From assembly GCF_000972785.3 (NCBI RefSeq), contig NZ_CP011253.3:2418001-2482000 (forward strand): a stretch of DNA of 64,000 nucleotides, in the 5' to 3' direction. Shown here in pieces: positions 19,863 to 41,181 of the stretch. Made by a program: the position numbers and the translations under genes. The notes beneath the pieces were generated by a model, which was not told the DNA's origin, did not search any database, and was given only the letters and a program-made list of their open reading frames with translations. This DNA comes from Pandoraea oxalativorans. Its GTDB lineage: Bacteria; Pseudomonadota; Gammaproteobacteria; Burkholderiales; Burkholderiaceae. How positions within the stretch are numbered: position 1 is the stretch's first letter; each line of letters starts with the position of its first letter.

Positions 19863-20748
19863 GGCGCACCTCGCGATCGAACAGCCCGTAGGGCTTGAAG
19901 AGCAATGCCAGCAACAGGATAAGAAACGCACCCGCATTGATGTAGCCCACTGGTAGGAAGGCGACGGTCTTGCCGAGCATCGGGCCGAAATTCAGGTTCG
20001 TCACCAGCGTTTCCGTCAGCGCGATGAGTACGGCCCCGGCCACTGCGCCGAGCGGATTGCCCAGGCCGCCCAGAATCGCGGCGGCGAACACGGGAAGCAG
20101 CATGTCGTTGCCGAGTTGCACGTGCGCACCGGCCGACAGGGCCAGCAGTCCGCCGCCCAGACCGGCGACGGCGCCCGATGCGAAGGTGACGCCTCGTGTG
20201 ATCCATTCGGCGTTCAGGCCCGACGCGGCGGCGAGCGACGGATTCGTCGCGAGCGCGCGCATGGCACGTCCAGCGCGTGTGTAAAAGAGGACCAGCGCAA
20301 AGACGGCCAGCAGCGCAATCGTGGTCGACACGGAATAGAGCTGCAACTGCGTGATGCGGGCGTCGCCGATAAGCATCGGGGGTGTGAGGGGCAGGTTGAA
20401 CATTTTCGGGAACGAGCCTGCGATGCCCTGGCAGAAGGCGATCACGAGCATCGAGACGGCGAGCGAGCCGATCATGGCGATGGCCGGTCCGCCGCGCAAC
20501 AGTTTGCGAAAGACGAGCCGGTGCATGGTTAGCGTGAGTGCGCCGGTCATGAGCGCGGCAAGCATGAGCGACGCCCAGAGCGGCAGACCGAACGTCGCCA
20601 TCGCATAGGTGAGGTAGGCCCCCGCCATGGCGTACTGCACGTGGGCGATATTCGGAAACTTGACGAGTCCGTAGACCATGGACAGCCCGAGGGCGATCAG
20701 GGCCAGATCGGACGCGCGTAACAGCGTATCGACAAGAAGTTGGAGCAT
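19855..20748 (-). CDS. livH: ABC transporter permease, LivH type
   Basis: 297 residues, about eight hydrophobic helices, starting MLQLLVDTLLRASDLALIALGLSMVYGLVKFPNIAHVQYAMAG in the LivH manner (the GLxxVYGLxxxxNxAH signature). The C-terminal half contains LGGLGNPLGAVAGAVLIALTETLV, the conserved permease loop. It sits 146 bp downstream of the binding-protein gene; a strong hairpin lies in that gap. Confidence 0.9.
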   Translation of the reverse strand: MLQLLVDTLLRASDLALIALGLSMVYGLVKFPNIAHVQYAMAGAYLTYAMATFGLPLWASLMLAALMTGALTLTMHRLVFRKLLRGGPAIAMIGSLAVSMLVIAFCQGIAGSFPKMFNLPLTPPMLIGDARITQLQLYSVSTTIALLAVFALVLFYTRAGRAMRALATNPSLAAASGLNAEWITRGVTFASGAVAGLGGGLLALSAGAHVQLGNDMLLPVFAAAILGGLGNPLGAVAGAVLIALTETLVTNLNFGPMLGKTVAFLPVGYINAGAFLILLLALLFKPYGLFDREVRRV

Positions 20749-20810
20749 GAAATGAATTCGCAGTGAAGCGTTGGCATGGGCGGCGATCGTTCGACGCCGC
20801 CGGACACGAC

Positions 20811-20840
20811 ATCGGCAACGCCGGTCATGGCGTTGCCGAT
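20811..20840. repeat. 12-bp perfect hairpin between binding-protein gene and livH
   Basis: The 12-bp arms 20811-20822 and 20829-20840 pair perfectly around a 6-base loop in the middle of the 146-bp gap. No T run follows in the direction of transcription, so it is more likely an mRNA-stabilising or processing structure that favours the binding-protein message than a full terminator. Confidence 0.6.
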
Positions 20841-20894
20841 GCGCATCACGTTCAAACCGAGGTAGCTAACCTGGCCAACGAGAGGAGTGGCGAT

Positions 20895-22004
20895 TTAGCG
20901 CGGCACCACCTTGCCGTCGTACTTCAGCTTTGCATACGGCGGGTCGATACGTTGACGATCCGCGTCGAACGAAATCGGGCCAGTGACCCCGGCAAAGTTG
21001 TTGCCAACGGTCTTCAATGCAGCTTGCACGGCTGCAGGCTGAGTCGACTTTGCCTTGTTGATGGCGGCAGCGCTCAGCATGACGGCGTCGTAGGCGTAAC
21101 CCGTGTACGACGTCTTCGGTGCCTGACCGTACTTCGCCTGGAATGCGTCGATGTACTGCTTGCCGACGGTCCCCTGGACCGAGCCGACTTCCATGCCGAG
21201 TTGGCCGTTGGCGATATTCGCGGGGGTATCCGAGAGGCTCATCGACAGCAAGATCGCGTACCAGGGCTTTTGACGCAAGCCGAGTTCGAACGCTTCGCGA
21301 TTGAGGACGGCCGATTCCTGACCGTACGCGGTGTAGATGTAGGCGTCCGGATTGCTGCGCGAGGCCTGCTGAAGTTCGCGGCGATACGTGGATTGGCCTG
21401 CGGTGTACAGCAGTTCCGTGGCGACCTTGCCGCCGAGCTTTTCGAATTCCTCCCGGAAGCCGTGCGCCACGCCCTGACCGTAAGCGTTGTTGGGTGCGAT
21501 CAGGGCGATATTGCGATAACCGAGATCCCACGCGTCTTTGGCGGAGAATTTGTTGCCGAGGTTCTCCAGACCGATCAGATTGAATGAAGTCGCGCCGAGA
21601 TCCTTAACTTTCACGCTCGTGCTGGCGATGTTGATGTGCGTCACGCCTTCTTTCACCAGATATTGCGCCATCGGCAGCGTAATGCCGGACGAATATTCGC
21701 CGATGACCACGGGCACTTTGTCGACGGTGGCGAGCTTGCGTGCGGCATTCAGAGCGGTGGTCGGATTGCCCCCCGAGTCTTCGACGACGACGTCGAACTT
21801 CTTACCCATCACGCCGCCTTGCGCGTTGACCTTTTCCACCGCAAGCGCAACGGCACGGCGAACATCTTCGCCCACCGTAGCGTTTGCACCGGTCAGCGAG
21901 AGTACCGCCCCCATGCGGACCGTATCGTCTGCCGCGTTGACATGCGAAGCAAAGGCGAATGCCAGTGCGGCCGGGACGATCAACTTGCGAAGTTTCAATG
22001 ACAT
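20895..22004 (-). CDS. periplasmic substrate-binding protein of LivJ/HAAT type
   Basis: 369 residues with a Sec signal peptide (MSLKLRKLIVPAALAFAFASHVNAA) and the periplasmic-binding fold of the branched-chain amino acid family (MGAVLSLTGANATVGEDVRRAVALAVEKVNAQGG). It leads the liv-type operon and is divergent from a GntR/FCD regulator. Such proteins also bind urea, amides or aromatic acids. The ATG at 22004 has a GGGGGA ribosome site; codons upstream in frame do not match. Confidence 0.9.
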   Translation of the reverse strand: MSLKLRKLIVPAALAFAFASHVNAADDTVRMGAVLSLTGANATVGEDVRRAVALAVEKVNAQGGVMGKKFDVVVEDSGGNPTTALNAARKLATVDKVPVVIGEYSSGITLPMAQYLVKEGVTHINIASTSVKVKDLGATSFNLIGLENLGNKFSAKDAWDLGYRNIALIAPNNAYGQGVAHGFREEFEKLGGKVATELLYTAGQSTYRRELQQASRSNPDAYIYTAYGQESAVLNREAFELGLRQKPWYAILLSMSLSDTPANIANGQLGMEVGSVQGTVGKQYIDAFQAKYGQAPKTSYTGYAYDAVMLSAAAINKAKSTQPAAVQAALKTVGNNFAGVTGPISFDADRQRIDPPYAKLKYDGKVVPR

Positions 22005-22178
22005 GAATTTCCCCCGAAAAGAGTCAGTTGAGCCTGCAGAAAAAAGCGCGTTTGGCCGATGACCGTGCGTCCACATGTCGGCGGCGACGCTCGGGGGAGC
22101 GCCGCATGACGACCGATGTCGTCATGTGGACTGTCTCCCCTGGTAGAACCCATTTGCACCTGTCAAAACAGGATTGAT

Positions 22179-24951: not shown

Positions 24952-25896
24952 ATGGCCAGCAGCAACGCGAATTCCAAGGATTATCCCCGCGACCTTATCG
25001 GCTACGGCCGTCATGTCCCGTTTGCCGACTGGCCGGGACGTGCGCGCATTGCCGTGCAGTTCGTGCTGAATTACGAAGAGGGCGGCGAGAACTGCGTGTT
25101 GCACGGTGACAAGGCGTCCGAGCAGTTCCTGTCCGAGATCATTGGCGCGGCCGCTTACGAGGCCCGTCACATGAGCATGGAGTCCATCTATGAGTACGGA
25201 TCGCGCGCGGGCGTGTGGCGCATCTTGCGCGAGTTCGAGCGGCGGGGCTTGCCGCTGACCGTGTTTGGCGTGGCGATGGCGATGCAGCGTCACCCGGAGG
25301 TGACGGCAGCATTCCAGGCGCTTGGGCACGAGATTGCGTGTCACGGCTGGCGCTGGATTCACTATCAGAACATGGACGAGGCGACAGAGCGTGAGCACAT
25401 GCGCATCGCCATCGACATCTTCAAGGAAATGACCGGTAGCGCACCGTTGGGTTGGTACACCGGTCGCGACAGTCCGAACACCCGCCGTCTCGTCGTCGAG
25501 CAGGGTGGTTTCGTGTACGACTCCGACAACTATGGCGACGACCTGCCGTTCTGGACGCAGGTGCAGACCAGCAGTGGCGAAGTGAAGCCGCACCTTGTGG
25601 TGCCATACACGCTCGACACCAACGACATGCGCTTTGCTGCGCCGCAGGGTTTCAACACGGCGGACCACTTCTTCCATTACCTGCGCGACGCGTTCGACGT
25701 CTTGTACGCCGAGGGGGACGAAGCGCCGAAGATGCTGTCGATCGGGATGCACTGCCGGTTGCTGGGTCGTCCGGGCCGTTTCGCAGCGTTGCAGCGATTC
25801 CTCGATCACATCGAAAAGCACGATCGCGTGTGGGTGTGCCGTCGTATCGACGTGGCGCGCCACTGGCAAGAGCGCCATCCGTTCGTCGCGGCGTGA
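24952..25896 (+). CDS. puuE: cofactor-independent allantoinase PuuE
   Basis: 314 residues of the polysaccharide-deacetylase (NodB-like) fold rather than the amidohydrolase fold of DAL1. It hydrolyses allantoin to allantoate. Family marks: YPRDLIGYGRHVPFADWPG at the N-terminus, FVLNYEEGGENCVLHGD, EYGSRAGVWRILREF, and the barrel motifs HGWRWIHYQNM and GWYTGRDSPNTRRLV. It starts a run of four urate-pathway genes in the same direction (puuE, uraD, alc, allA), consistent with an operon. Confidence 0.93.
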   Translation: MASSNANSKDYPRDLIGYGRHVPFADWPGRARIAVQFVLNYEEGGENCVLHGDKASEQFLSEIIGAAAYEARHMSMESIYEYGSRAGVWRILREFERRGLPLTVFGVAMAMQRHPEVTAAFQALGHEIACHGWRWIHYQNMDEATEREHMRIAIDIFKEMTGSAPLGWYTGRDSPNTRRLVVEQGGFVYDSDNYGDDLPFWTQVQTSSGEVKPHLVVPYTLDTNDMRFAAPQGFNTADHFFHYLRDAFDVLYAEGDEAPKMLSIGMHCRLLGRPGRFAALQRFLDHIEKHDRVWVCRRIDVARHWQERHPFVAA

Positions 25897-26045: not shown

Positions 26046-26579
26046 ATGAACGCCCCGTTGCCTATGACCCAACGTACCGTTGCCGAGCTGTCGGCGCTAC
26101 CGCGCGCCGAATTCATTGCCGCGCTCGACGGCATTTTCGAGCATTCCCCGTGGGTGGCCGAAACGGCGTGGGAAGACCGCCCGTTCGCGACCGTCAATGC
26201 ACTGCACGACGCGATGTGCCAAGCCGTGATCGATGCGGGTGAGACGCCGCAACTCGACCTCATCCGCGCCCACCCGGAACTGGCTGGCAAAGCGGCTGTG
26301 CGTGGTGAGCTGACTGCCGAATCGACGCGTGAGCAGGCAGGTGCCGGACTGGACCAGTGCAGTGCAGAAGAGTTTGCGCGACTGACTGCGCTGAACGACG
26401 CCTACAAAGTCAAATTCGGCTTCCCGTACATCCTGGCCGTGCGTGGCCACACCCGCAGCAGCATCATCGAGAACTTCGCGACGCGTCTGGAGAACAGCCG
26501 TGCGGACGAAATCGAAGAATGCCTGCGCCAGATTTTCCGTATCGCCGGTTTCCGGCTGCAAGACCTCGTGCGCGACTGA
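26046..26579 (+). CDS. uraD: OHCU decarboxylase
   Basis: 177 residues. It decarboxylates 2-oxo-4-hydroxy-4-carboxy-5-ureidoimidazoline to S-allantoin. The family signature LIRAHPELAGKAAV carries the catalytic His of the HPxLA motif, and the C-terminal block FPYILAVRGHTRSSIIENFATRLEN is the conserved (F/Y)(I/V)xxxxG box. A ribosome site AGGAGA precedes the ATG. Lies between allantoinase and allantoicase. Confidence 0.93.
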   Translation: MNAPLPMTQRTVAELSALPRAEFIAALDGIFEHSPWVAETAWEDRPFATVNALHDAMCQAVIDAGETPQLDLIRAHPELAGKAAVRGELTAESTREQAGAGLDQCSAEEFARLTALNDAYKVKFGFPYILAVRGHTRSSIIENFATRLENSRADEIEECLRQIFRIAGFRLQDLVRD

Positions 26580-26636
26580 GCGTACGACACCGTCATATTT
26601 TAAGTTTCAGACATTACCGAGCAACAAGGAGTTTGC

Positions 26637-27659
26637 ATGGCCCTCGTCCCGCAAGACCCGAACGCACCGGACTTCGTGCGCCGTTATGTGAATCTGGCCG
26701 ACCCGCGTCTGGGTGCCGAAGCGCTTGTCGCGACCGACGAATTCTTCGCGGCCAAAGAGCGCATGCTCAACCCGGAGCCCGCTGTCTTCATCCCGGGCAA
26801 GTACGACGAGAACGGCAAGTGGATGGATGGTTGGGAGACGCGTCGCAAGCGAGTGAACGGCTATGACTGGTGCATCGTCAAGCTGGCGCGCCCGGGCGTG
26901 TTGTTCGGCGTCGATCTGGACACGAGCCACTTCACGGGCAACTTCCCCCCGGCCGCGTCGCTTGAGGGTTGCTACAGCCCGGACGGCGCACCGACCGAGT
27001 CGGCCGAATGGTTCGAACTGCTGCCGTCGACCACCTTGCAGGGCAACGCACACCACTACCATGCCATCACACAGCAGCGCGCGGCGACCCACGTACGCGT
27101 GAACCTGTACCCGGATGGCGGTCTGGCGCGTTTGCGCTTGTATGGGTTGCCGCAGAGCGACTGGGCGGGCCGGTCGCGAGATGAGCTGATCGACCTGATC
27201 GCGATGGAAAACGGCGGTTACGTGGTGGCGGCAAACAACCAGCACTTCGGTTTGGCGTCGAACTTGTTGATGCCGGGCCGTGGCGTGAACATGGGCGATG
27301 GGTGGGAGACGCGTCGTCGTCGTGAGCCGGGCAATGACTGGGCGATTATTGCGTTGGCGCAGCCGGGCGAGATTGGCAAGATCGAAGTGGACACGGCGCA
27401 CTTCAAGGGCAACTTCCCGGACCGCTGTTCTATCCAGGCGGCGTACGTGACGGGCGGGACCGAACAGTCACTGATTACGCAATCGATGTTCTGGCCCGTG
27501 TTGTTGCCGGAGCAGAAGTTGGCGATGGACAAGCAGTTCTACTTCGAAGAGCAGGTGCAGAAGTTGGGGGCGATCACGCACATCCGTTTCAACATCATTC
27601 CGGACGGCGGCGTCTCACGCCTGCGTCTGTGGGGACGGTTGAGCGACAAGAAGGCGTGA
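26637..27659 (+). CDS. alc: allantoicase
   Basis: 340 residues, two tandem jelly-roll repeats: [13 protein letters not shown]...[26 protein letters not shown] (about 60-105) and [43 protein letters not shown] (about 220-265). It hydrolyses allantoate to ureidoglycolate and urea. RBS AAGGAG upstream of the ATG. The second repeat is the most diagnostic. Third of the four-gene unit. Confidence 0.94.
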
Positions 27660-27719
27660 TGAGGTGACCGCGAAGGACAGCAGCACAGCGAAACGAACAG
27701 AGAGAACAAGGAGCGTGAC

Positions 27720-28253
27720 ATGGCGGGACCGGCATTGAAGATCGAGCGGTTGACGCGAGAGGCGTTCGCGCCGTTCGGCGATGTGATCGAGTTGGAGGGT
27801 GCGAAGCATTTCGCGATCAATGGCGGGACGACGGAGCGTTTCCATGATTTAGCGACGGTGGATCTGGGCCCGGAGGGCGGACGCACGTTGGTCAACGTCT
27901 TCCGAGGCCAGCCGAGACAGTTGCCGTATGAGGTGAAGATGTTGGAGCGTCACCCGTTGGGCAGTCAGGCGTTCATCCCGTTGAAGACGACGCCGTATTT
28001 AGTGGTCGTCGCTCCGGCGGGCGAGTTGGACGTGAGCAAGCTGCGTGCGTTCGTCTCGGATGGATGGCAGGGGGTGAACTATGCCAGGGGCGTGTGGCAT
28101 CACCCGTTGTTGGCGTTGGATGAGGTGAGTGACTTTGTGGTGGTGGACCGGGGTGGTGAGGGGCACAACTGTGACGAGCAGGATTTGCCGGGTGTGTATT
28201 TGCTGACGCAGGCGGCGCTGGATGCGGTGGTAGGAGCGCAGAAAGCTGCGTAA
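27720..28253 (+). CDS. allA: ureidoglycolate lyase
   Basis: 177 residues, cupin-like family. It splits ureidoglycolate to glyoxylate and urea, the last purine-ring step here. Diagnostic stretches: [44 protein letters not shown] and [18 protein letters not shown] precedes the ATG. Followed by a terminator, so it closes the puuE-uraD-alc-allA unit. Confidence 0.93.
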
Positions 28254-28456: not shown

Positions 28457-28852
28457 GTGTTTTTGACTAACACCAAGCAGGAAGTGATGGAAGTGTTGAC
28501 GGGCCCAGAGCGCCGGCGTCGCTGGACGGCGGAGCAGAAACTGTCGATGGTTCGCGAGAGTTTCGAACCGGGAAAATCGGTTTCAATGGTCGCGCGCCAT
28601 TACGGCGTGAACCCGAACCAGCTATTCCACTGGCGCAAGCTGTACCAGGACGGTAGCCTGTCAGCGGTCAAGGCTGGCGAAGAAGTGGTTCCGGCATCGG
28701 AGTTGGCTGATGCGCTCAAGCAGATTCGCGAGCTGCAACGGATGCTCGGCAAAAAAACAATGGAGAACGAGATTCTCCGGGAAGCAGTTGAATACAGCCG
28801 AGCAAAAAAATGGATAGCGCACTCGCCCTTGCTGCCGGAGGACGGCCAGTGA
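28457..28852 (+). CDS. IS2-type transposase OrfA (InsC-like)
   Basis: 131 residues from a GTG. An N-terminal HTH ([44 protein letters not shown]) followed by a leucine-rich coiled coil ([18 protein letters not shown]). It carries an A7 stretch at 28804-28810 where a -1 slip (A AAA AAA) joins it to orfB, the standard IS3 route to the OrfAB transposase. Intact. Confidence 0.9.
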
Positions 28853-29697
28853 AACTGGTCTGTGAAGTTCTCGGCGTGTCGCGCTCGAACGTATCGGCAC
28901 GACTGTCGCGTCCGGCGACGTGGCGCGATGGCCGGCAATCAAGGCCGACCGACGACGAAACTGTAGTCGAGGAAATCCGCCGTGTCGTCGGCGATTTGCC
29001 CAGCTATGGCTACCGGCGGGTTTGGGGCACGTTGCGCAACGAGCGCGTTGCAGTTGGACTGGCGCCGTTCAATGCCAAGCGCATTTATCGCATCATGCGA
29101 ACGCATGGGCTGCTGACGCAGCGCCGACCGATTGCGCCGCGAGCCCACCGTCGACATGATGGCAAAGTGGCCGTCGCGCGCAGCAATCAGCGATGGTGCT
29201 CGGACGGCTTCGAGTTCCGCTGCGACAACGGCGAGCCGCTGCGTGTGACGTTTGCGCTGGATTGCTGCGACCGAGAAGCGATGAGCTGGGCGGCGACGAC
29301 AGCAGGCCACAGCGGCGACATTGTGCGCGACGTGATGCTGGCCGCAGTGGAAAATCGGTTCGGCAACGAGGTGCATACGCCGTCCGAAATCGAGTGGCTG
29401 AGCGACAATGGTTCGGGCTATACGGCTGACGATACGCGCCGGTTTGCGATGAACATCGGACTAAAGCCATTGACCACGCCCGTGTGCAGTCCGCAAAGTA
29501 ACGGCATGGCCGAGAGCTTCGTGAAAACGATGAAGCGCGACTACGTCGCCTTCATGCCGAAGCCGGATGCTGCAACCGCTGCTCACAATCTGGCCATTGC
29601 ATTTGAGCATTACAACGAGAAGCACCCCCATAGCGCGCTGAAATACCGCTCGCCTCGCGAGTTCCGGCGCTCGATGGATTCAGCAACCTTAGTGTGA
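28810..29697 (+). CDS. IS2-type transposase OrfB (InsD-like, DDE integrase)
   Basis: 295 residues, one frame back from orfA and overlapping it. HTH_21-like region then rve catalytic core: [12 protein letters not shown] (first Asp), [13 protein letters not shown] (second Asp) and [19 protein letters not shown] (Glu), giving a complete DDE triad. Likely made mainly as an OrfAB fusion by -1 frameshifting at the A7 run. Intact. Confidence 0.9.
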
Positions 29698-29788: not shown

Positions 29789-30013
29789 CCGGTCCGTTAG
29801 GGGGAAGGTGTTAGGGGGCGGGGGTAAACACAACAGTCCGAGTAGAACCCCAACTCCTATACTTCGAAACACCGATGTGGTGCGTAGGCGGTGGTGCAGG
29901 GAGGTGGGCGCACCGAAAGCGTGCGGAAAGCGGCAAAAGGTTAAAAAAGGGCGGAAAAACAGCTCGGGCATGGATATTGCTCGATCTCGACACAGCAATC
30001 TGCGGAGAAGCCT

Positions 30014-31438
30014 ATGGTCGAGAGCTATAACGAGATGGCGAGCATCACGGGTGCGACGCGTTCGCACTACCGTCGGTTTGACGACTGGTTGAAATGTCAG
30101 ACAGAAGATGTCTTGCACCATAAGCGAGCCGAGGCCGATCTGGCGTTCAGGCGCGTGGGGATCACGTTTGCTGTGTATGGGAATGAGGCGGGCACGGAGC
30201 GTCTGATCCCGTTCGATCTGATCCCTCGGATCATTCCTGCGCATGAGTGGCATACATTGCAGACGGGTTTGCGTCAGCGAGTCGAGGCGCTCAACAAGTT
30301 CATCCACGACGTTTATCACGACCAGAACATCCTGCGTGCGGGCGTGATCCCGGCGGATCAGGTGTTGAAGAATGCGCAGTACCGTCCGGAGATGCAGGGT
30401 GTGGACGTTCCCGGCGACATCTACTCGCACATCGCGGGCGTCGACGTAGTTAGAGCGGGAACGGGAGACGATGGCGTCTTCTACGTCTTGGAAGACAACT
30501 TACGGGTGCCATCCGGCGTGTCGTACATGCTGGAGAATCGCAAGATGATGATGCGGTTATTTCCGGAGTTGTTCGCGCGCAATCGCATTGCACCGGTGGA
30601 GCATTACCCGGACTTATTGCTCGACAGCCTGCGGGCCGTAGCGCCGATCGGCGTGGACGATCCCACCGTCGTCGTGATGACGCCGGGCATCTACAACTCT
30701 GCATACTTCGAGCATGCGTTCCTGGCGCAACAGATGGGGATCGAGCTGGTCGAAGGGCAGGATTTGTTCGTCGAGGACAACCTCGTCTACATGCGCACGA
30801 CCAACGGTCCGAAGCGTGTCGACGTTATCTATCGCCGCATTGACGACGACTTCCTCGACCCGCTTGCTTTCCGCGCCGACTCCACACTGGGCGTGCCGGG
30901 GTTGCTGAGCGTCTATCGTGCGGGGCGCGTGACATTGGCCAACGCCATCGGTACGGGCGTCGCCGACGACAAGTCTATCTACCCGTTCGTCCCCGACATG
31001 ATCGAGTTCTACCTCGGAGAGAAGCCGATCCTGAATAACGTGCCGACCTACCAGTGCCGTCGGCCCGACGACCTTGCGTACACGCTCGACAACCTCGGGG
31101 AACTGGTCGTCAAGGAAGTCCACGGTGCGGGCGGGTACGGCATGCTCATCGGTCCGGCGTCCACCAAGGCCGAAATCGAAGCCTTCCGGCAGCGGCTTAT
31201 CGCGAAACCCGACGGCTACATCGCACAACCCACGCTGGCACTCTCCGCATGCCCGACGTTCGTAGAAGCCGGTATCGCCCCGCGACACATCGACCTGCGG
31301 CCGTTCGTGTTGTCCTCGGGCAAGGGTGTCACCATGGTGCCGGGCGGCCTGACGCGCGTAGCGCTCACGGAGGGTTCGCTGGTCGTCAACTCCTCGCAAG
31401 GGGGCGGGACCAAGGACACCTGGGTACTGGAAAAGTAA
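30014..31438 (+). CDS. circularly permuted ATP-grasp protein (amidoligase type)
   Basis: 474 residues of the circularly permuted ATP-grasp family (CP_ATPgrasp, formerly DUF404/DUF407). Because the fold is permuted, the metal-binding motif comes early (VLEDNLRVPSGVSYMLENRK, about 154-173) and the glycine-rich nucleotide loop late (VKEVHGAGGYGMLIGP, about 363-378). ATP-grasp enzymes join a carboxylate to an amine with ATP, so a peptide or isopeptide ligase role is predicted; the substrate is unknown. First of four genes with alpha-E, transglutaminase and Anbu proteins. GGAGA precedes the ATG at 30014; an in-frame ATG at 30035 is also possible. Confidence 0.9.
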   Translation: MVESYNEMASITGATRSHYRRFDDWLKCQTEDVLHHKRAEADLAFRRVGITFAVYGNEAGTERLIPFDLIPRIIPAHEWHTLQTGLRQRVEALNKFIHDVYHDQNILRAGVIPADQVLKNAQYRPEMQGVDVPGDIYSHIAGVDVVRAGTGDDGVFYVLEDNLRVPSGVSYMLENRKMMMRLFPELFARNRIAPVEHYPDLLLDSLRAVAPIGVDDPTVVVMTPGIYNSAYFEHAFLAQQMGIELVEGQDLFVEDNLVYMRTTNGPKRVDVIYRRIDDDFLDPLAFRADSTLGVPGLLSVYRAGRVTLANAIGTGVADDKSIYPFVPDMIEFYLGEKPILNNVPTYQCRRPDDLAYTLDNLGELVVKEVHGAGGYGMLIGPASTKAEIEAFRQRLIAKPDGYIAQPTLALSACPTFVEAGIAPRHIDLRPFVLSSGKGVTMVPGGLTRVALTEGSLVVNSSQGGGTKDTWVLEK

Positions 31439-31508
31439 GCGGCAGAGGCCATAGAGAGCGCGCAAGTCAGCCAGACCGCGCACATCGGAAAATTATCGGG
31501 AAGAGATC

Positions 31509-32507
31509 ATGCTCAGCCGTACCGCCGACCACTTGTTCTGGATGGCCCGCTATATGGAGCGAGCTGAAAACACCGCTCGCCTGCTCGACGTCAATTTGCA
31601 AAACCTCCTGCTTCCGCAGGATGCCGTCGACGACGAAGACGATACCGACATGGCGCAGGTCCTCGCTGGCGGCATCGACAATGAAGCGGGTTGGCGCGCC
31701 ACCTTGCGCATCTCCGAGCTGGAGCCTGCGTTCAACCGCAAACATGGGCGCGCGACGCGCGCCAACGTGCTCGACTTCGTGGTGCGCGACCCCGAGAACC
31801 CGTCGAGCATCGCCTGCTGTCTGGCCGCCGCGCGGGAGAACGCCCGTGCCGTACGCGGCACATTGACCACCGAGCTATGGGAGAGCGTCAACAGTACCTG
31901 GCTGGATTTCCCGCGCATCCTCGATCTGCTTGAGCGCGATCCCGCGCACCTGTTCGAATGGGTCAAAGTGCGCTCTCACCTGTCGCGGGGCGTGAGCTTC
32001 GGCACCTTGTTTCAGGACGACGCCTTCTACCTCACCCGGCTCGGCCTGTTCCTGGAGCGCGCCGACAACACCGCCCGCATTCTCGACGTCCGTTTCCACG
32101 AAGCGGTGCGAGCCGACAAGGCGGGGCCGGACGCGTCGCATCCGACCGACTTCTACTACTGGTCGGCCGTCCTGCGCAGTGTCTCCGGCTTCGAGATCTA
32201 CCGGAAGGTCTACCGGGACGTCATCACACCCGAGCGCGTCGTCGAGTTGCTGATGCTCAACGCGCACATGCCGCGCTCGTTGCTCGCGTCGCTCACGGGC
32301 GTGTGCGAAAACCTCGCCACGCTCTCCAATGCCCAGTCCGGCGAGGTCGAACGCTATGCAGGCAAACTACAGTCCGAACTCAAATACACCGACATCCAGC
32401 AAATTCGACAGCAAGGCCTGCACCCCGTGCTGACCGAATTCCTCGAGCGAGTCTCCGTGCTCGGCAACAAGATCAGTCAGACCTTCCTGATCCCGCTCGC
32501 CGCCTGA
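31509..32507 (+). CDS. alpha-E domain protein (formerly DUF403)
   Basis: 332 residues, nearly all helical, opening MLSRTADHLFWMARYMERAENTARLLDVN, the family signature. Alpha-E proteins are almost always encoded beside a circularly permuted ATP-grasp gene and are presumed to work with it, perhaps as a carrier or binding partner; no activity is established. 70 bases after the ATP-grasp gene with a GGAAGAG ribosome site; next gene starts 4 bases after its stop. Confidence 0.9.
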   Translation: MLSRTADHLFWMARYMERAENTARLLDVNLQNLLLPQDAVDDEDDTDMAQVLAGGIDNEAGWRATLRISELEPAFNRKHGRATRANVLDFVVRDPENPSSIACCLAAARENARAVRGTLTTELWESVNSTWLDFPRILDLLERDPAHLFEWVKVRSHLSRGVSFGTLFQDDAFYLTRLGLFLERADNTARILDVRFHEAVRADKAGPDASHPTDFYYWSAVLRSVSGFEIYRKVYRDVITPERVVELLMLNAHMPRSLLASLTGVCENLATLSNAQSGEVERYAGKLQSELKYTDIQQIRQQGLHPVLTEFLERVSVLGNKISQTFLIPLAA

Positions 32508-32511
32508 TGCC

Positions 32512-33315
32512 ATGCGCCTGACCATCCGCCACGAAACCACCTACCGCTACGACACGCCGGTGCGCTACACCATCCAGCAGCTTCGGCTCACGCCGAGCGC
32601 GTCGGAGGTGCAGCGCATCGTGCAATGGCGACTGAACGCGCCGGGCAAGGTCACGCCCGCACGTGACGCCTTTGGCAACGACATGCATACGCTCGTGCTG
32701 CATCAACCGCACGATGAGATCCATCTGCTGGCCGAAGGCGAGGTCGAAACGACACCGCTCATCGACGGCAGGCTGGGGGAAACGAGCCATGCCGTACCAG
32801 TGTTATGCTTCGCCAGCCCTACGCCGTTGACGGGGCGCAGCGACGGCATCGACGCACTGGCGGGCGACGCCGGGGTTGCCACGCCGGGAGAGTTGCTGGC
32901 GCTGGCGGCGGCCATTTGCGAGCAGGTCGATTACGAGTCGGGGATCACCGCCGTGACCAGCACCGCTGCACAGGCACTCGCACTGGGACGCGGCGTCTGT
33001 CAAGACCACGCACACCTCATGCTGGCCGTGTGCCGCGCGCGAGGCGTGCCAGCGCGCTACGTCAGCGGGTACATCGATCCGGGCGACGTGCCGCACGCGG
33101 CCAGCCATGCCTGGGTCGACGTGTGGGTAGAGGGCGCAGGGTGGGTCAGCATCGACGTCACGCATGCCTGCTTCGCCAGCGGCAACTACTGCCGTCTTGC
33201 AGTGGGGCGTGATTACGAATCTGCGGCGCCCGTCAGAGGCATGCGCAGCGGCGGTGCGACCGAGAAGTTGCACGTATCGGTCAGTGTCGATACGGCACCG
33301 CTCGATCAACAATAA
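32512..33315 (+). CDS. transglutaminase-like cysteine peptidase
   Basis: 267 residues. Bacterial transglutaminase-like N-terminal strand region (MRLTIRHETTYRYDTPVRYTIQQLRLTP) then a papain-like core with Cys in GRGVCQDHAHLMLAVCRARG, His in ASHAWVDVWV and Asp in WVSIDVTHAC, a complete C-H-D triad. Members of these operons are thought to cut or transfer amide bonds, i.e. reverse or edit what the ATP-grasp makes; this is inference. Starts 4 bases after the alpha-E gene. Confidence 0.9.
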   Translation: MRLTIRHETTYRYDTPVRYTIQQLRLTPSASEVQRIVQWRLNAPGKVTPARDAFGNDMHTLVLHQPHDEIHLLAEGEVETTPLIDGRLGETSHAVPVLCFASPTPLTGRSDGIDALAGDAGVATPGELLALAAAICEQVDYESGITAVTSTAAQALALGRGVCQDHAHLMLAVCRARGVPARYVSGYIDPGDVPHAASHAWVDVWVEGAGWVSIDVTHACFASGNYCRLAVGRDYESAAPVRGMRSGGATEKLHVSVSVDTAPLDQQ

Positions 33316-33368
33316 TAGCTTTTCAACGTAGCGAGGCAGCGCGCCTTGCACGGCAAGACAGGAACGAC

Positions 33369-34217
33369 ATGACGTATTGCGTGGCCATGAAGCTCGATGC
33401 CGGGCTGGTCTTTCTTTCCGACACCCGCACCAACGCGGGCGTCGATCATGTGAGCACATTCCGCAAGATGCTCGTGTTCGAGCGTCCGGGCGAACGCGTC
33501 ATCGTGCTGCTCTCGGCGGGGAATCTTGCGTTGACGCAGGCGGTACGCCAGCAACTGGTCGAGGCGCGCGACACCGAAACGCTGTGGACCGCGAAGACCA
33601 TGAGCGACGTGGCGCGCGTCGTCGGGCAGGCCATTCGCGACGTCTATACGCGCGACGCCAAGTCGCTCGAAGCGTTCGGCGTCGATTTCAATTGCAGCTT
33701 CCTGCTCGGCGGGCAAATCGCCGGTGCGCGCAGCCGTCTGTTCCAGTTGTACTCGGCGGGTAATTTCATCGAGGCGTCCTCCGTCAATCCGTACTTTCAG
33801 ATCGGCGAATCGAAGTATGGCAAGCCCATCATCGACCGGCTGGTCACGCCCGCAACGTCGCTCGACGACGGCGCGAAATGTGCCCTCATTTCGATGGACT
33901 CCACGCTGCGCTCGAACGTCTCCGTCGGGTTGCCGCTGGATCTGCTCGTCTACGAAGAAAACAGTTTGCGCGTGACACGCTTCGCGTCGCTCGACGACGA
34001 GAACGTCTACTACAAGATGATCCACGACACCTGGGGCTCGCGTCTGCGTCAGGTGTTCGACGAACTGCCCGAGCCGCAGTGGGCGACGTCCGGCGCGGCC
34101 TGTGCGCCCGCGTCGCTGCCGCCGCGGGCCGAGCCGCCCGAAGGCATGCCCGGTGCGGATGAGCCGGGGAGCGTTCAGTCGCTCGCACAGACCGTATCGC
34201 TCAAGATGCCGTCCTAA
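33369..34217 (+). CDS. Anbu, proteasome/HslV-like peptidase
   Basis: 282 residues of the proteasome beta-subunit superfamily, Anbu branch. After Met removal the chain starts TYCVAMKLDAGLVFLSDTRT: Thr1 nucleophile, Asp17 and a Lys at about 32 in TFRKM, matching the N-terminal-nucleophile set of HslV. No HslU, Lon or other unfoldase gene is adjacent. The last ~45 residues (after PEPQW) are Pro/Ala/Gly-rich and look disordered, an extension past the core. Fourth gene of the ATP-grasp operon. Anbu rings are known structurally but their substrate is not. Confidence 0.93.
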   Translation: MTYCVAMKLDAGLVFLSDTRTNAGVDHVSTFRKMLVFERPGERVIVLLSAGNLALTQAVRQQLVEARDTETLWTAKTMSDVARVVGQAIRDVYTRDAKSLEAFGVDFNCSFLLGGQIAGARSRLFQLYSAGNFIEASSVNPYFQIGESKYGKPIIDRLVTPATSLDDGAKCALISMDSTLRSNVSVGLPLDLLVYEENSLRVTRFASLDDENVYYKMIHDTWGSRLRQVFDELPEPQWATSGAACAPASLPPRAEPPEGMPGADEPGSVQSLAQTVSLKMPS

Positions 34218-34270: not shown

Positions 34271-35649
34271 TTACGCCAACCCGAGACTGCGGTGCTGCTT
34301 CCGATACAGCCATGCGCTGAGCGCGAGCGTCGTCGCTTCCGTGGCGAGTAGCGTGTACCAGATCGCGCCGCCGCCGAAGCGCGCGTCGAGCAACCAGAGA
34401 ATGCCCAGCAGCAGAATCCAGCTGCGCAGCATCGCGATGGCCGCCGACGGGCCCGGCGCTTCGACCGCCGTCAGATAGCCCGCAACGATCAGATTGCCCG
34501 CTGCGGGCAGAAACGCCAGCGCGTACCAGATGACCGCGTGTTCCAGAATCGACCAAGCGTCGCCACCGGCAGGCAGGAAGAGGAACGTCAGCGGACGCGC
34601 CAGCGCCGCCATCGCCAGGGCGACCAGCAGCGAGAATCCCATCACCGCGACGACGCCCAGACGGAACGCCCCCTGGAGCGCCTTCGCATCCCGCGCACCG
34701 CGATAAAAGCTGATCATCGGCTGCATGCTCTGCACGAGTGCGACCATCGTCACCGTGGCCCCGAGCGTCATATATTCGAGGATGGCGTAAGCGGCCAGCC
34801 CCGGCTCACCGAAGTTGACCAGAATCACGCGGTTGAAGACGAACACCGTCACTGCCGGTGCGATCGCGCCGAGGAACTCCGACGCGCCGTTGTACATCGC
34901 CCGCCACACATACGACACGTGCGTTTCCCCGCCACCGAAAGCGTGACGGGCAGGCACCACTTGCTTCGCCAGGCAGAGGTGATACGCCAACATCACGCTG
35001 CTCGACACCATCATCGACAGCCCGGTGGCCAGCGCGGCGCCGTGCATCCCCATCTCACGAACCACGATGAACCAGTAGTCGAGCGCCACGTTCGCGAGCG
35101 CGCCCATCAACATCGCATACAACCCGAAACGGGCGGCGGGCGCGCCTTCGACGCGCAGGAACAACTCCATCGCGTAGAGGCCGTTGGCAAACAGCACGAA
35201 CCAGCCCCAGCCGGAAAGATAGGCGACGACGTGCGCCGTGATTGCGCCTTGCGCACCCAGTGCAGCAGCGATCTCATGCCTGAAGACGAGTACGGCAGCA
35301 CTCATCGCGACGCCCGAGACGAGCATCACCCACAGCACCTGCGAGAACGCGCGACGCGCCTCGGCATTGCGCCGCTCGCCCAACAGGCGGGCGATGAGCG
35401 TTGCGCCCCCGACGCCCACCATCACACTGAGCGCGTACGGCACATAGAGCACGGCACCACAAGGTTCAGCGCGGCCAGCGCTTGCTGGCCGACATAGCGG
35501 CCGATGAAGATCCCGTCGATCAGCGTGTAGATCGTGTACACCCAGCCGGAGAGGATCGTCGGAATCGCGAGAGACGTAAATTCCTTGAGCAGAGACGTCC
35601 TTGCGCCCTGCGAATGACTGCAATGATGATTAGACGTGGAAAGAGACAT
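34271..35649 (-). pseudogene. MATE-family efflux transporter broken by a frameshift
   Basis: The N-terminal part (from the ATG at 35649: TSLLKEFTSLAIPTILSG...YTLIDGIFIGRYVGQQALAALNLVVP) is in one frame and stops soon after; the rest, beginning VLYVPYALSVMVGVGGATLIARLLGER, continues in another frame to 34271. The crossover is at about 35450-35462 and adding one base there joins them into a normal ~459-residue, 12-helix MATE protein. Either a real inactivating single-base loss or a sequencing error. Convergent with the Anbu operon. Confidence 0.82.
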
Positions 35650-36085: not shown

Positions 36086-37291
36086 TTATTGTTGTGCGCC
36101 GCCGTTAAACCACGCGGCAATTTTCTGGCGCTCTTCATCGGTCATTTGCGTCACGTTGCCCAGGGGCATCGACTTGAGCGCGACCGATTGTTGATAAATG
36201 CGTTGCGCGTTCTGCGAGATCTCCGCGGGCGTATCGAGCATCACGCCGGCCGGCGCGCTGCCCATCATCGTCGGCTTGGCCGAGTGGCAGGTGGCGCAAC
36301 GTTGCGTCAGGATCGGCTGGATCTCCGAGAGCTTCACGGCCGGGGCCGCCGCTTCACCGTGCGCACCGGCGGCAGGGGCCGGGGCGGAGCGCGGGGCGGC
36401 AAATACGGCGACCCCTGCGAGCAGTGCAGCACCGACAACCGGCAGCGCGTACAGATTCTTGCCTGCGTGACGCAGCACGAAGAACTGACGAATCATTGCG
36501 CCCGCGGCCGTGATGATCGTGAGGATCACCCAATTGTACGGATTGCTGTACGTGAACGCGTAGTGATTGCTGATCATGATGAACACGACCGGCAGCGTGA
36601 AGTACGTGTTGTGCACCGAACGTTGCTTGCCGAGCTTGCCCCAGATCGGGTTCGGGACTTCGCCCTTCGAGAGCGCATCCACGCTCTTGCGCTGTCCCGG
36701 AATGATCCAGAAGAACACGTTCGCCGACATCGACGTCGCCATCATGGCGCCGACGATCAGAAAGGCGGCGCGACCGGCGAAGATCTGCGTCGTTGCATAC
36801 GTTGCGGCCACCACGAACAGTGCCACACCCATACCGAGCACACGCTCGTTCTTGCCCAGCAGACGGCACAGGAAGTCATAGACGAACCAGCCGCCGATCA
36901 GGAACGCGACCGCAAGGCCCACAGCCTGACCCGGTTGCAGATCCATCACGTTCTTGTCGATCAGATACGTCTGCGGTTGCAGCAGGTACAGCACGCAGAA
37001 CAGAGCGAAGCCCGAGAGCCACGTCGTGTACGACTTCCACTTCGACCAGTGCAGATCTTCCGGCATCTGCGGCGGCGAATTCAGATACTTCTGCGCGTGA
37101 TAAAAACCACCGCCGTGCACCGACCACATCTCGCCGAACACGCCTTTCTGTTTGTCCTCGGCCGCTTTGGGCGGCTTCAGGCCATTGTCCAGCATCACGA
37201 AATAGAACGACTCGCCAATCCAGGCGATGGCCGCCACCACATGCAGCCAGCGCAGCAACAGATTGACCCAGTCGGTAATAAACGCTTCCAT
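36086..37291 (-). CDS. puuD: urate hydroxylase PuuD (membrane, cytochrome c-linked)
   Basis: 401 residues. An N-terminal integral-membrane part with about eight helices (VNLLLRWLHVVAAIAWIGESFYFVMLDN and several His residues in loops) and a C-terminal cytochrome c domain (about 320-401) with heme motif CATCH and a distal Met region (KSMPLGN). It oxidises urate to 5-hydroxyisourate using the respiratory chain instead of oxygen-dependent uricase. GAGGAG precedes the ATG. Downstream of uraH in the same operon. Confidence 0.93.
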   Translation of the reverse strand: MEAFITDWVNLLLRWLHVVAAIAWIGESFYFVMLDNGLKPPKAAEDKQKGVFGEMWSVHGGGFYHAQKYLNSPPQMPEDLHWSKWKSYTTWLSGFALFCVLYLLQPQTYLIDKNVMDLQPGQAVGLAVAFLIGGWFVYDFLCRLLGKNERVLGMGVALFVVAATYATTQIFAGRAAFLIVGAMMATSMSANVFFWIIPGQRKSVDALSKGEVPNPIWGKLGKQRSVHNTYFTLPVVFIMISNHYAFTYSNPYNWVILTIITAAGAMIRQFFVLRHAGKNLYALPVVGAALLAGVAVFAAPRSAPAPAAGAHGEAAAPAVKLSEIQPILTQRCATCHSAKPTMMGSAPAGVMLDTPAEISQNAQRIYQQSVALKSMPLGNVTQMTDEERQKIAAWFNGGAQQ

Positions 37292-37331
37292 CTTATGTTC
37301 TCCTCAACTGCCTGACGTTCACGTTCGCGAT

Positions 37332-37682
37332 TTAGCTACCGCGATACGTTGAAAAGCTCCACGGCGACACCAGAAGGGGCACGTGGTAATGCTGGGACGG
37401 CTGCGCGATGCCAAAACGCAGCACCACGCGATCCACGAAGCGCGGCGACGGCACGTCCACGCCCTGTGCGGCGAAATAGTCGCCCGCGTGGAACACCAGT
37501 TCGTATTCGCCGGCGGCGAATTCCTCACCTTCGAGCAGCGGTTTGTCGCAGCGGCCGTCGGCATTCGTCTGCACGTCGCGCAGCGAACGGCGCTCGCCGT
37601 CCACGCGCCACAACTCGACACGGATGCCCGCGCCTGGCTTGCCGTGCGATGTATCTAGTACGTGGGTAGTCAGTCGTCCCAT
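37332..37682 (-). CDS. uraH: 5-hydroxyisourate hydrolase (transthyretin-like)
   Basis: 116 residues. It hydrolyses the product of PuuD. Family motifs: LTTHVLDTSHGKPGAGIRVEL at the N-terminus, the HAGDYF strand and the C-terminal YHVPLLVSPWSFSTYRGS, which is the near-invariant YRGS ending that forms the active site. The ATG at 37682 gives the standard length. 40 bases upstream of puuD, so cotranscribed. Its product is then the substrate of UraD encoded 11 kb away. Confidence 0.95.
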   Translation of the reverse strand: MGRLTTHVLDTSHGKPGAGIRVELWRVDGERRSLRDVQTNADGRCDKPLLEGEEFAAGEYELVFHAGDYFAAQGVDVPSPRFVDRVVLRFGIAQPSQHYHVPLLVSPWSFSTYRGS

Positions 37683-38120
37683 GATGTCTCCTGTGATGGA
37701 TGGGTGCATTGTAGGGAGATGGCGGCGCGGCAACGCGCGCAATACCAAAGATAAAAACGCGCACATACCCCGTTATGCAGGACAAAAAGATGACGCGCAT
37801 CAATAGGGCATCGCGACGTCTGAAGCGTACGCTACGTGCACCGGAATTGGGATTTTTTGGAGGACTATCGGATTCTGTTATCCAGCGAATAACACGTGAC
37901 GTATGAGCCGTTATCGCGACAGGAGACGCATCGTCCGGGAAGCCCAATGGTTACGTGCGTGCTTGGGGAAAACCCGAGACGCAAGATAAGCATTCATGCA
38001 TACGTTTCATGAAAAAAACACTATAGCCTCCGGCGGTCTTGCCGCAAAGTGCGTCGACCTGCACCATTGAGTCACCCTAAAAAATAGACATTAAACAGCC
38101 CCCCGAGGGACGGAGACGCA
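37683..38120. other. divergent regulatory region between uraH-puuD and the permease
   Basis: 438 bases without a gene between two divergent purine units. It contains the dyad GTTAT-N7-ATAAC at 37877-37893 (17 bp, the size of a LysR-type site) and AT-rich stretches suited to promoters. The dyad's role is inference; a LysR gene sits 5.5 kb away. Confidence 0.45.
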
Positions 38121-38841
38121 ATGAGTGTGACAACCAATGCCGTGGATCCGGTCGATGAGCGACTGCCGATCGGAAAATTGTTCATGCTGGGCCTGCAACA
38201 CGTTCTGGTGATGTACGCGGGCGCGGTGGCCGTGCCGCTCATCATCGGCGGCGCGCTGGGCCTTCCCAAGGATCAGATTGCGTTTCTGATCTCCGCCGAT
38301 CTGATGTGCTGCGGCATCGCCACGCTGATTCAAAGCGTCGGTGTGGGCCGCTTCGGTATCCGGATGCCCGTCATCATGGCGGTCACCTTTGCCGCCGTCG
38401 GGCCGATGCTCGCCATCGGTACGAACCCCTCGCTCGGCTTGCCCGGTATCTTCGGGGCGACCATTGCCTCCGGCATCATCGGCACGCTGATCGCGCCGCT
38501 CGTCGGCAAGCTGCTGCGCTTCTTCCCGCCGATCGTGACCGGCATCGTCATTACGTCCATCGGCCTGACCATCATCGGCGTGGGCATCAACTGGGCGGCA
38601 GGTGGCGTGGGCAATCCCGACTACGGCGACCCGGTCTATCTCGGTGTGTCGTTCGCGGTGCTCATCTTCATTTTGCTGATCACGCGCTTCGTGAAGGGCT
38701 TCTTCTCGAACATCGCCGTGCTGCTCGGCATCCTGTTCGGATTCGGCATCGCGCTGTTGCTGCACAAGGTGAATTTCGACGGTCTCGATCAGGTGAAATG
38801 GTTCGACATCGTGCTGCCGTTCCACTTCGGCATGCCGGTGT
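38121..38841 (+). pseudogene. 5' part of NCS2 uric acid/xanthine permease, split by an IS
   Basis: Residues 1-240 of a nucleobase:cation symporter-2: LFMLGLQHVLVMYAGAVAVPLIIGGAL at the start, then GIATLIQSVGVGRFGIRMPVIMAV and ITSIGLTIIGVGINWAAGG. The coding sequence is genuine to about FHFGMPV; beyond 38841 the frame runs into the insertion sequence and stops at 38903. Closest in style to UacT/UapA-type urate or xanthine carriers, which fits the cluster. See the 3' part at 40524. Confidence 0.88.
38837..38841. repeat. left 5-bp duplication flanking the permease insertion
   Basis: GGTGT, repeated at 40524-40528. Removing the interval plus one copy rejoins the permease frame as GMPVFDPWAIV. 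Confidence 0.7.
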
Positions 38842-38881
38842 CGGAAATTTTCAAGCTAGTTGTCGCCTCCACGAATAAATT

Positions 38882-39961
38882 TCAGGCGGCCTTTCTCTCC
38901 TGACTACGGCGCTGTGCGGCGACGTCCTGGTGGTCGATGCGATCCGGGTTCAGGTGCACAGCATCGACGCGCTGCCAGTTGCGCGTGCGGCCTTTCCAGC
39001 GCAGCGGGTGGCGTTGCCGGGCGGCCTCATAAAGCGCTGCTCGTCGATCCAAAATGGTCTGGTCGAGATTGGCATGGCGCTGCGCCGGCGTCACGAACCG
39101 GATCGCGCTGTGACGGTGCTCTTCGTTATACCAGCGCACCAGCGCGCCCACCCAGGTGCGTGCGGCGAGCAGGGTGTCAAATGCCCTCAGCGGGTAAGTC
39201 GGCCGGTACTTTAGGGTCTTGAACAACGATTCAGAATAAGGGTTGTCGTTGCTCACGCCCGGGCGGCTGAGCGAGTGCATGACGCCCAGCGTCTGGAGGG
39301 TGGCGAGCATCGTCGCACCTTTCATCGGGCCGCCGTTATCCGAATGCAGAATCACCTGGTCGGGTGGTATCGCTTCGCGCGCACACAGGTCCTTGAGCAC
39401 TTCACTGGCCAGTGCGCTGCTTTCCTGCGCATAGACCTGCCAACCAACGATCTTTCGGCTGAACACGTCCAGAAACAGGTACAGATAAAAATACTGCCCG
39501 CGAACCGTGCTCGGCAGATAGGTGATGTCCCAGCTGTACAACTGGTTCGGCGCACGCGCGCACACCGCACGGGGCTTGCTATGGGCCTGGGCCGGCCGTT
39601 CGCTGCGCCGGTGGGCGAGTTGCTTCTCGGCCTTCAGGACCCGGTAGAAAGTCGATTCCGAGGCAATATAGCGTTGCTGATCTGCCAAGCGCGGCACGAT
39701 CTGGCTGGGCGGCAGATGACCCAATTCGGCCGAGTTCGCCACCGCCAGAAGCTCGGCGCGCTCCTCGGCGCTAAGCTTATGGCGCGGCTCGTGGTGTCGT
39801 AATGTGCGCCGGTCCACTGCGTCAGGTTCGCCGCGCTGCCAGCGCTGAACGGTGCGGGCACTGAGCCCCAGAATGACGCACGCGCGTGCTTGGCGAGCCC
39901 CGGCCCGAGTCGCCTCGGTGATCAGACCAATCAATACTTTGCGCTGCTCAGACGACGTCAT
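38882..39961 (-). CDS. IS3-family transposase OrfB (DDE integrase core)
   Basis: 359 residues. N-terminal HTH (RACVILGLSARTVQRWQRGE), then the rve core with YSWDITYLPS (Asp), ILHSDNGGPMKG (Asp) and DNPYSESLFKTLKYRP (Glu). The ATG overlaps the orfA stop by 4 bases (ATGA), so it is translated by coupling rather than by the -1 slip typical of IS3. Intact. Confidence 0.9.
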   Translation of the reverse strand: MTSSEQRKVLIGLITEATRAGARQARACVILGLSARTVQRWQRGEPDAVDRRTLRHHEPRHKLSAEERAELLAVANSAELGHLPPSQIVPRLADQQRYIASESTFYRVLKAEKQLAHRRSERPAQAHSKPRAVCARAPNQLYSWDITYLPSTVRGQYFYLYLFLDVFSRKIVGWQVYAQESSALASEVLKDLCAREAIPPDQVILHSDNGGPMKGATMLATLQTLGVMHSLSRPGVSNDNPYSESLFKTLKYRPTYPLRAFDTLLAARTWVGALVRWYNEEHRHSAIRFVTPAQRHANLDQTILDRRAALYEAARQRHPLRWKGRTRNWQRVDAVHLNPDRIDHQDVAAQRRSQERKAA

Positions 39962-40523: not shown

Positions 40524-41181
40524 GGTGTTCGATCCGTGGGCCATTGTGACGCTCACCATCGTGATTCTGATTACCTTCATCGAATCGACGGGCATGTTCC
40601 TCGCGCTGGGCGAAATCGTCGGCAAGCCGGTGGACGAGAAGGCGCTGGTCGCCGGTCTGCGTGTCGATGGCGTTGCAACGGTCATTGGCGGCCTGTTCAA
40701 CACCTTCCCGCATACCTCGTTCTCGCAGAACATCGGTCTTGTTGGCGTGACGGGCGTGAAAAGCCGCTGGGTGTGCGCCTCGGCCGGCGTCATCCTGCTC
40801 GTGTTCGGCCTGATTCCGAAGATGTCGGTCGTGGTGGCGTCCATTCCCCAGTTCGTGCTGGGCGGCGCGGGGGTCGTGATGTTCGGCATGGTGCTCGCCA
40901 CGGGCATCAAGATCCTGTCCAAGGTCGACTACTCGCATAACCGCTACAACCTGTATATCGTAGCCATCAGCATCGGTATGGCGATGATCCCGGTCGCGTC
41001 GAACAAGTTCTTTGCGAAGATGCCCGAACAACTCGCGCCGTTGCTGCATAGCGGGATTCTGCTCGCTACGCTGTCCGCCGTGATCCTGAACGCCTACTTC
41101 AACGGCTTCAAGGCGCCGGTGACGCACGGCAACGGCCACGGCGAGAAGAACGGATCGAGCATGGGGCTGGAGGCGCATTGA
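40524..41181 (+). pseudogene. 3' part of the NCS2 uric acid/xanthine permease
   Basis: About 219 residues beginning VFDPWAIVTLTIVILITFIESTGMFLALGE, the second half of the transporter; NTFPHTSFSQNIGLVGVTGVKSR is the NCS2 signature region. Joined to the 5' part at 38121 after removing 1,687 bases it gives 457 codons, the normal family size, with no internal stop. As it stands no promoter or start is evident, so uptake by this carrier is probably lost. Its stop overlaps the next gene by one base. Confidence 0.88.

Follow-up and report, generated by a model that had tools for sequence, protein, structure and literature searches.

The Anbu operon comprises four adjoining genes on one strand that encode an ATP-grasp protein, an alpha-E protein, a transglutaminase-like protein and Anbu, in this order. 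Both the gene order and the idea that it serves peptide tagging are credited to Valas and Bourne 2008 and Iyer et al. 2009 in two later papers (PMC6376114, PMC5666114), which, like the other papers below, are cited for the parts of their text that were available. In discussions of how the proteasome arose, Anbu is placed close to its origin, and its job is not established in the literature consulted. Here, we analysed a copy of this operon in a 64,000-nucleotide stretch of the Pandoraea oxalativorans genome (NZ_CP011253.3, positions 2,418,001 to 2,482,000 of the forward strand; hereafter the window). It is a real, intact and ordinary copy of the published operon and not a new system, so that the novelty claimed in the original prediction, made from the letters of this DNA, has to be given up. 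We consider it an even chance that the operon works under nitrogen limitation, with the ligase as its core and Anbu as an accessory.

Anbu was inactive on three fluorogenic substrates (PMC6376114) and on a standard set of proteasome substrates (PMC5666114), and a stable complex among the operon proteins was found in neither report, as far as their available text goes. Anbu-1 does bind proteasome inhibitors, and the authors judged a role in peptide synthesis less likely and favoured protein degradation (PMC5666114). The ATP-grasp protein of the Anbu operon of Y. bercovieri released phosphate from ATP (PMC6376114), which speaks for the earlier assignment of this protein as a likely amide ligase. 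As to regulation, I35_5080-83 were down 6 to 9 times in an ntrC mutant of B. cenocepacia (PMC5491218), and nitrogen limitation of P. putida raised PP_2686-2688 by 11-15 times and the Anbu gene PP_2685 by 1.12 times (PMC7801951). COG3484 is listed among sigma-54 regulons (PMC12316311), and in marine metagenomes DUF403/404/407 and Bact_transglu_N track urea genes (PMC3597751). A literature search on Anbu with NtrC returned nothing relevant, judged by title.

In the window, all four open reading frames lie on the plus strand in the order of the published operon, with gaps of 70, 4 and 53 bases, which bears out the coordinates and the tight spacing noted before. The first (30014..31438) encodes a predicted carboxylate-amine ligase with a full-length, circularly permuted ATP-grasp domain (CP_ATPgrasp_2, PF14403, E 5e-168, 374/374 positions covered; CP_ATPgrasp_1, PF04174, E 1e-156, the only match genome-wide), which matched the solved structure 3n6x at E 1e-223. 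When a family-profile search of structures was used to compare its catalytic residues with those of an enzyme of known reaction, only 3n6x scored (E up to 10), and the mapping of its residues onto glutathionylspermidine synthetase was therefore dropped. The alpha-E protein (31509..32507; PF04168, E 3e-94, again the single match genome-wide) is predicted to be all-helical and is the constant neighbour of the ATP-grasp protein; no solved relative was found, the best profile match having an E value of 0.07.

The transglutaminase-like cysteine protein (32512..33315) matched Transglut_core (PF01841, E 1e-23), Bact_transglu_N (PF08379, E 6e-22) and the structure 3isr (E 1e-14). Its Cys-His-Asp triad, by which the papain-like transglutaminase superfamily is recognized, is intact as predicted (C163, H199, D215). 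H199 and D215 are invariant across 21 aligned sequences and C163 is lost in one, the protein of Caballeronia glebae (L020, 9136-9930), in which the His and Asp are kept. Anbu (33369..34217), an Ntn-hydrolase of the proteasome fold, scored slightly under the curated cut-off of the Pfam Proteasome family (E 2e-4) and matched five deposited Anbu-type sequences (5loy, 5nyw, 5nyj, 5nyf and 5lox; best E 4e-96). The N-terminal Thr1 after the Met (T2 counting Met) and Asp17 (D18), both called earlier, and the Lys at position 32/33 (K33) do not vary among the 8 Anbu proteins aligned. Its S1 pocket (T21, F31, S49, L53 and T56, counting Met) is Anbu-1-like; compared with the pocket printed for P. aeruginosa Anbu (T20, F30, T48, L52, S55; PMC5666114), three of the five residues are identical and the other two are T/S exchanges. 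None of the four proteins was matched by NCBIfam or, at E up to 0.1, by the PADLOC anti-phage defence models, and at gathering scores the window had no Rfam match. The identified neighbours of the operon are a transposase pair, a ureidoglycolate lyase, a MATE transporter and urate oxidase, none of them an AAA+ unfoldase adjoining Anbu, in agreement with the original prediction; the rest of the genome was outside this search.

A putative sigma-54-type promoter (CGGGCATGGATATTGCT; 29965..29981, plus strand) is found 49 bases before the ATP-grasp start. It scores 23/26, with weights of our own and a cut-off of 21/26, against what we take to be the sigma-54 consensus, YTGGCACGRNNNTTGCW; the GG-N10-GC spacing of the -24/-12 elements is present and 2 of the 14 fixed consensus positions differ. 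The consensus has been printed as GGcacg-N4-ttGC (PMC5491218). Further upstream are an NtrC-like palindrome (ACACCGATGTGGTGC; 29869..29883, 10/12 fixed bases) and a second NtrC-like site (GCACCGAAAGCGTGC; 29910..29924, 9/12). We aligned the upstream region of the window with those of 17 of 20 genus relatives, leaving out L126 and L133 for their short upstream sequence and L136 as too divergent. In this alignment of 18, the two NtrC-like sites and the sigma-54 element stand out as conserved islands in an otherwise more variable region.

Conserved linkage across genomes had been set beforehand as a check on the operon, and it holds. Among 299 genomes drawn evenly from the phylum, Anbu was present in 121 and alpha-E in 172; 119 had both, 2 had Anbu without alpha-E, 53 had alpha-E without Anbu and 125 had neither, a co-occurrence that is descriptive because the genomes are related. 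From 119 of 121 against 53 of 172 it follows that Anbu goes with the ATP-grasp/alpha-E core and that the core can lack Anbu. In a genus-level sample of one locus per Anbu genus (n = 77, window included; about 9.7 kb fetched), the exact four-gene order on one strand was seen in 51 genera, Anbu stood alone in the fetched stretch in 15 and other arrangements made up 11. We also scanned GTDB contigs, where at least 592 Anbu relatives were found and the best 80 loci kept: in 31 of them Anbu has ATP-grasp and alpha-E as neighbours, contig ends truncate 2, and 47 show none of the three partners, at least 5 of these 47 having less than 1.5 kb upstream, so that partners could lie beyond. Alpha-E was present in 26 of the 27 genomes of detached Anbu loci that were searched. 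Transglutaminase directly follows alpha-E in 11 of 20 Anbu-free loci and in 8 of 39 ATP-grasp/alpha-E pairs detached from Anbu (about 2 kb fetched).

Scanning these sets for the promoter separated the ligase genes from Anbu. A site was found in 18/51 operon genera within 250 bases upstream (opposite strand 1/51; random places 4.8%, shuffles 2.9%), in 21/31 Burkholderiales operons (opposite strand 6/31) and in 33/39 detached ATP-grasp/alpha-E pairs (opposite strand 2/39). The last set came from 40 fetched loci, one of which was without ATP-grasp, and includes one locus (L315) from a genome without an Anbu match. Where the pair occurs in Anbu-free genomes, the site preceded it in 12/20 (opposite strand 0/20); these 20 were drawn, out of 53 genomes, from the better alpha-E matches among those listed. 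Before detached Anbu, it was seen in 5/47, against 7/47 on the opposite strand. In the 23 genomes in which both loci were scanned, the site was before the ligase only in 21, before both in 1, before Anbu only in 0 and before neither in 1. First-order resampling at a score of at least 21 gave the same picture: 20/51 for operon genera (3.5 expected), 22/31 for Burkholderiales operons (1.3), 33/39 for detached pairs (3.5) and 5/47 for detached Anbu (3.3). NtrC-like sites at 10/12 were likewise found in 9/51 operon genera (1.2 expected), 14/31 Burkholderiales operons (1.1), 14/39 detached pairs (1.2) and 1/47 detached Anbu loci (1.8). As a calibration, the promoter scan recovered sites before 9/30 P-II genes (opposite strand 1/30), a set of 30 out of 39 matches in which glnB and glnK are pooled. 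The possibility of another sigma-54 site inside the operon, ahead of Anbu, was also considered and rejected, since such a site is present in 1/51 operons. Taken together, these results suggest that a predicted nitrogen-type promoter travels with the ATP-grasp/alpha-E pair and not with Anbu. We did not find this split in print in the open literature, subscription papers being outside the search.

Several points weigh against this interpretation. The site scoring was fixed after the site of the window had been seen, the scanned sets are phylogenetically related and not independent, and 31/51 operon genera have no site at the cut-off. At a looser NtrC cut-off of 9/12, detached Anbu reaches 18/47 with 12.7 expected, and the contrast is weak. 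The exact gene order kept in most genera implies that Anbu is commonly placed for co-transcription with the ligase genes, and the transglutaminase gene kept in 11 of the 20 Anbu-free loci implies a minimal unit there of three genes, not two. In P. putida, PP_2686-2688 were still induced 14-20 times in an rpoN mutant, which argues against a strict need for sigma-54 (PMC7801951), and on nitrate versus ammonium Anbu was up 4.4 log2 and the ATP-grasp gene 4.0 (PMC8050072). The published P. putida data on Anbu induction are in conflict between these two papers. In addition, the product proposed for the ligase is hypothetical.

We propose the following mechanism for the nitrogen-limitation operon. 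On nitrogen shortage, NtrC at 29869-29924 would activate the sigma-54 polymerase at 29965-29981, NtrC dependence having been shown in relatives. Together with its constant partner alpha-E, the ATP-grasp protein would then join a carboxylate to an amine at the expense of ATP and yield a peptide-type amide, and the transglutaminase-like protein and Anbu may act as separable hydrolases that open or recycle this product. The functional core would be ATP-grasp and alpha-E, to which Anbu is probably accessory: nearly always in the same genome, yet dispensable to the core. In this genus, its place is within the urate/allantoin degradation locus, another nitrogen-scavenging module. The more specific view that the core is an Anbu-independent amide ligase of nitrogen starvation and not a proteasome, and that the Anbu of Comamonadaceae and kin has lost nitrogen control and become translationally coupled to the mismatch-repair gene mutS, falls slightly short of an even chance. 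If nitrogen control does belong to ATP-grasp/alpha-E, searching nitrogen-limited cells for the product of the ligase would be worth more than trying further proteasome substrates on Anbu. Neither the nitrogen link nor the purine-catabolism neighbours were part of the original prediction, and the promoter that follows the ligase pair is an addition of the present analysis.

Two other explanations deserve consideration. The first, credited to Iyer 2009 and close to the scheme of the original prediction, is peptide tagging and degradation, in which ATP-grasp and alpha-E attach a peptide mark to proteins, the transglutaminase trims it and Anbu degrades the proteins so marked. The common four-gene order, the rarity of Anbu without alpha-E (2/121) and the binding of proteasome inhibitors by Anbu-1 (PMC5666114) are what it would lead one to expect, and the part of the scheme that stands is a conserved operon with a likely ligase. 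Anbu as its obligate last step is weakened by the uncleaved substrates and the lack of a stable complex in PMC6376114 and PMC5666114, by the alpha-E genomes that have no Anbu, and by the nitrogen-type promoter, which stays with the ligase when the two are apart and was not seen before detached Anbu. The operon of the window, moreover, is flanked by a transposase pair and a MATE transporter rather than by an unfoldase. We regard the full tagging pathway as unlikely.

The second is a make-and-break cycle of a small molecule, modelled on glutathionylspermidine synthetase, in which the ATP-grasp protein couples a small peptide with a polyamine or some other amine, the cysteine hydrolase splits the conjugate and Anbu is secondary. 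The closest structure, 3n6x, was deposited as a putative glutathionylspermidine synthase, transglutaminase directly follows alpha-E in few of the detached pairs, and the NtrC regulon of B. cenocepacia also includes polyamine transport genes (PMC5491218). However, the name of 3n6x is an annotation and not an assay, the profile search led to no enzyme whose reaction is known and the substrate is hypothetical; the transglutaminase of the Anbu-free loci fits this cycle but fits the nitrogen-limitation operon as well. Such a cycle is about as improbable as tagging. It is very unlikely that the operon serves general protein turnover in starvation, with Anbu as the working protease and the three remaining genes serving to activate or supply it: the proteasome fold, the open-ring architecture and the view preferred by the authors (PMC5666114) as well as Anbu induction in PMC8050072 would favour it, but the promoter stays with the ligase when ligase and Anbu part, the ligase persists in Anbu-free genomes together, in the 12 loci above, with its promoter, and two groups found no Anbu activity (PMC6376114, PMC5666114).

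Detached Anbu has a setting of its own. Upstream of it, on the same strand, is mutS in 41/47 loci (among L035-L090, for example L059); the mutS stop and the Anbu start overlap by 4 bases in 16 of the 41, are 9-108 bases apart in another 16 and further apart in 9. No sigma-54 signal was apparent upstream of mutS, where a site was scored in 2/37, L085 among them being an artefact of slicing, against 5/37 on the opposite strand. As a widespread arrangement mutS next to Anbu was rejected, since in the genus-level sample it occurs in 7/77 loci, all of one family and all among the 15 with Anbu alone. Going by the loci that carry names in the GTDB scan, this family is probably Comamonadaceae. A literature search on mutS-Anbu linkage gave none on the subject, by title of those of the matches that were listed. 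The mutS-linked Anbu offers an independent natural setting for asking what Anbu does alone.

Other Anbu loci were noted in passing. A megaplasmid of Acidithiobacillus caldus (L006) carries Anbu together with a long transglutaminase, ATP-grasp and alpha-E, in the vicinity of genes with the annotations ntrC, glnL and glnA. Solitary Anbu genes on Azospirillum plasmids (L004, L009) are near genes for an amidase, an Asp/Glu racemase, an amidohydrolase and an ABC transporter; L004 also has dihydropyrimidinase nearby, and L009 has hydroxyisourate hydrolase. Four Anbu matches contain one in-frame stop each (G258:C17:150739-151470, G078:C23:119545-120276, G223:C7:212650-213372 and G247:C1:2775345-2776067); G247 has a second match without one.

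The operon of the window is embedded in genes for purine degradation. Upstream, Pfam and NCBIfam identified allantoinase PuuE (24952-25896) and OHCU decarboxylase, allantoicase and ureidoglycolate lyase (26046..28253, plus strand), followed by the transposase pair (HTH_Tnp_1 and rve; 28457..29697, plus strand), which lies between ureidoglycolate lyase and the operon regulatory region and is presumably of the IS3 type; its second open reading frame had no match in 20 stretches of the genus. Downstream, on the minus strand, Pfam identified a MATE-family transporter (MatE; 34271..35623) between the operon and urate oxidase PuuD with hydroxyisourate hydrolase (36086..37766). The xanthine permease gene beyond (38121-38861 and 40525-41178) is split by a stretch with a transposase gene (38882-39961, minus strand, rve domain). 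ABC transporter genes precede the purine genes (17447-22076), and their binding protein matched branched-chain amino acid and urea types below cut-offs.

We then compared this locus across 32 genomes of the genus, fetching 20 stretches from the 27 other Anbu-bearing members. In 19/20 of these, the genes that come after the operon are those for a MATE transporter, urate oxidase, hydroxyisourate hydrolase and xanthine permease. Ureidoglycolate lyase is upstream in 13/19, the contigs of the other 6 ending at most 0.7 kb from the ATP-grasp start. Anbu and urate oxidase share a contig within about 17 kb in 27/28 Anbu genomes, the exception (G030) having them about 2.2 Mb apart. Extra DNA of about 6 kb lies between Anbu and the MATE gene in L135, and of about 2 kb between transglutaminase and Anbu in L126. 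Anbu is missing from four of the 32 members, all of which are also without alpha-E; three of these four (G012, G023, G025) keep urate oxidase without the operon. In G012, a transposase gene (Pfam DDE_Tnp_1_6), of another kind than the pair of the window, occupies the would-be place of the operon between ureidoglycolate lyase and the MATE gene. Elsewhere, the best 80 Anbu loci gave 0 matches to the purine genes of the window (at most 10 kb on each side, many contigs being shorter). Because of this 0/80 and the operon-free urate oxidase genomes, purine linkage was rejected as a general rule, and the location of the operon is a habit of the genus. The side-by-side arrangement is fitting for two nitrogen-scavenging modules. 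A literature search on Pandoraea with purine, urate and nitrogen returned nothing relevant, judged by title.

Among known systems, RimK/RimB and RloABC of Pseudomonas (PMC12239564) likewise combine an ATP-grasp protein with a peptidase, and rlo also has a transglutaminase-like domain. They differ in their aspartic peptidases and membrane-bound inactive transglutaminase, and the available text of that paper does not mention alpha-E or Anbu. Also comparable are PP_2685-PP_2688 of P. putida and I35_5080-5083 of B. cenocepacia, members of the NtrC regulon, where ATP-grasp, alpha-E and transglutaminase genes are under nitrogen control; in the available listing of the B. cenocepacia cluster, a large transglutaminase comes last and Anbu is not named. 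NtrC control is already in print for these relatives, in which it was measured, whereas for the operon of the window it is predicted. The published Anbu operon is the closest match, with the same four families, order and strand and an Anbu-1-like active site. Unlike it, the operon in Pandoraea is set inside a urate/allantoin locus and, in this strain, has a transposase pair upstream.

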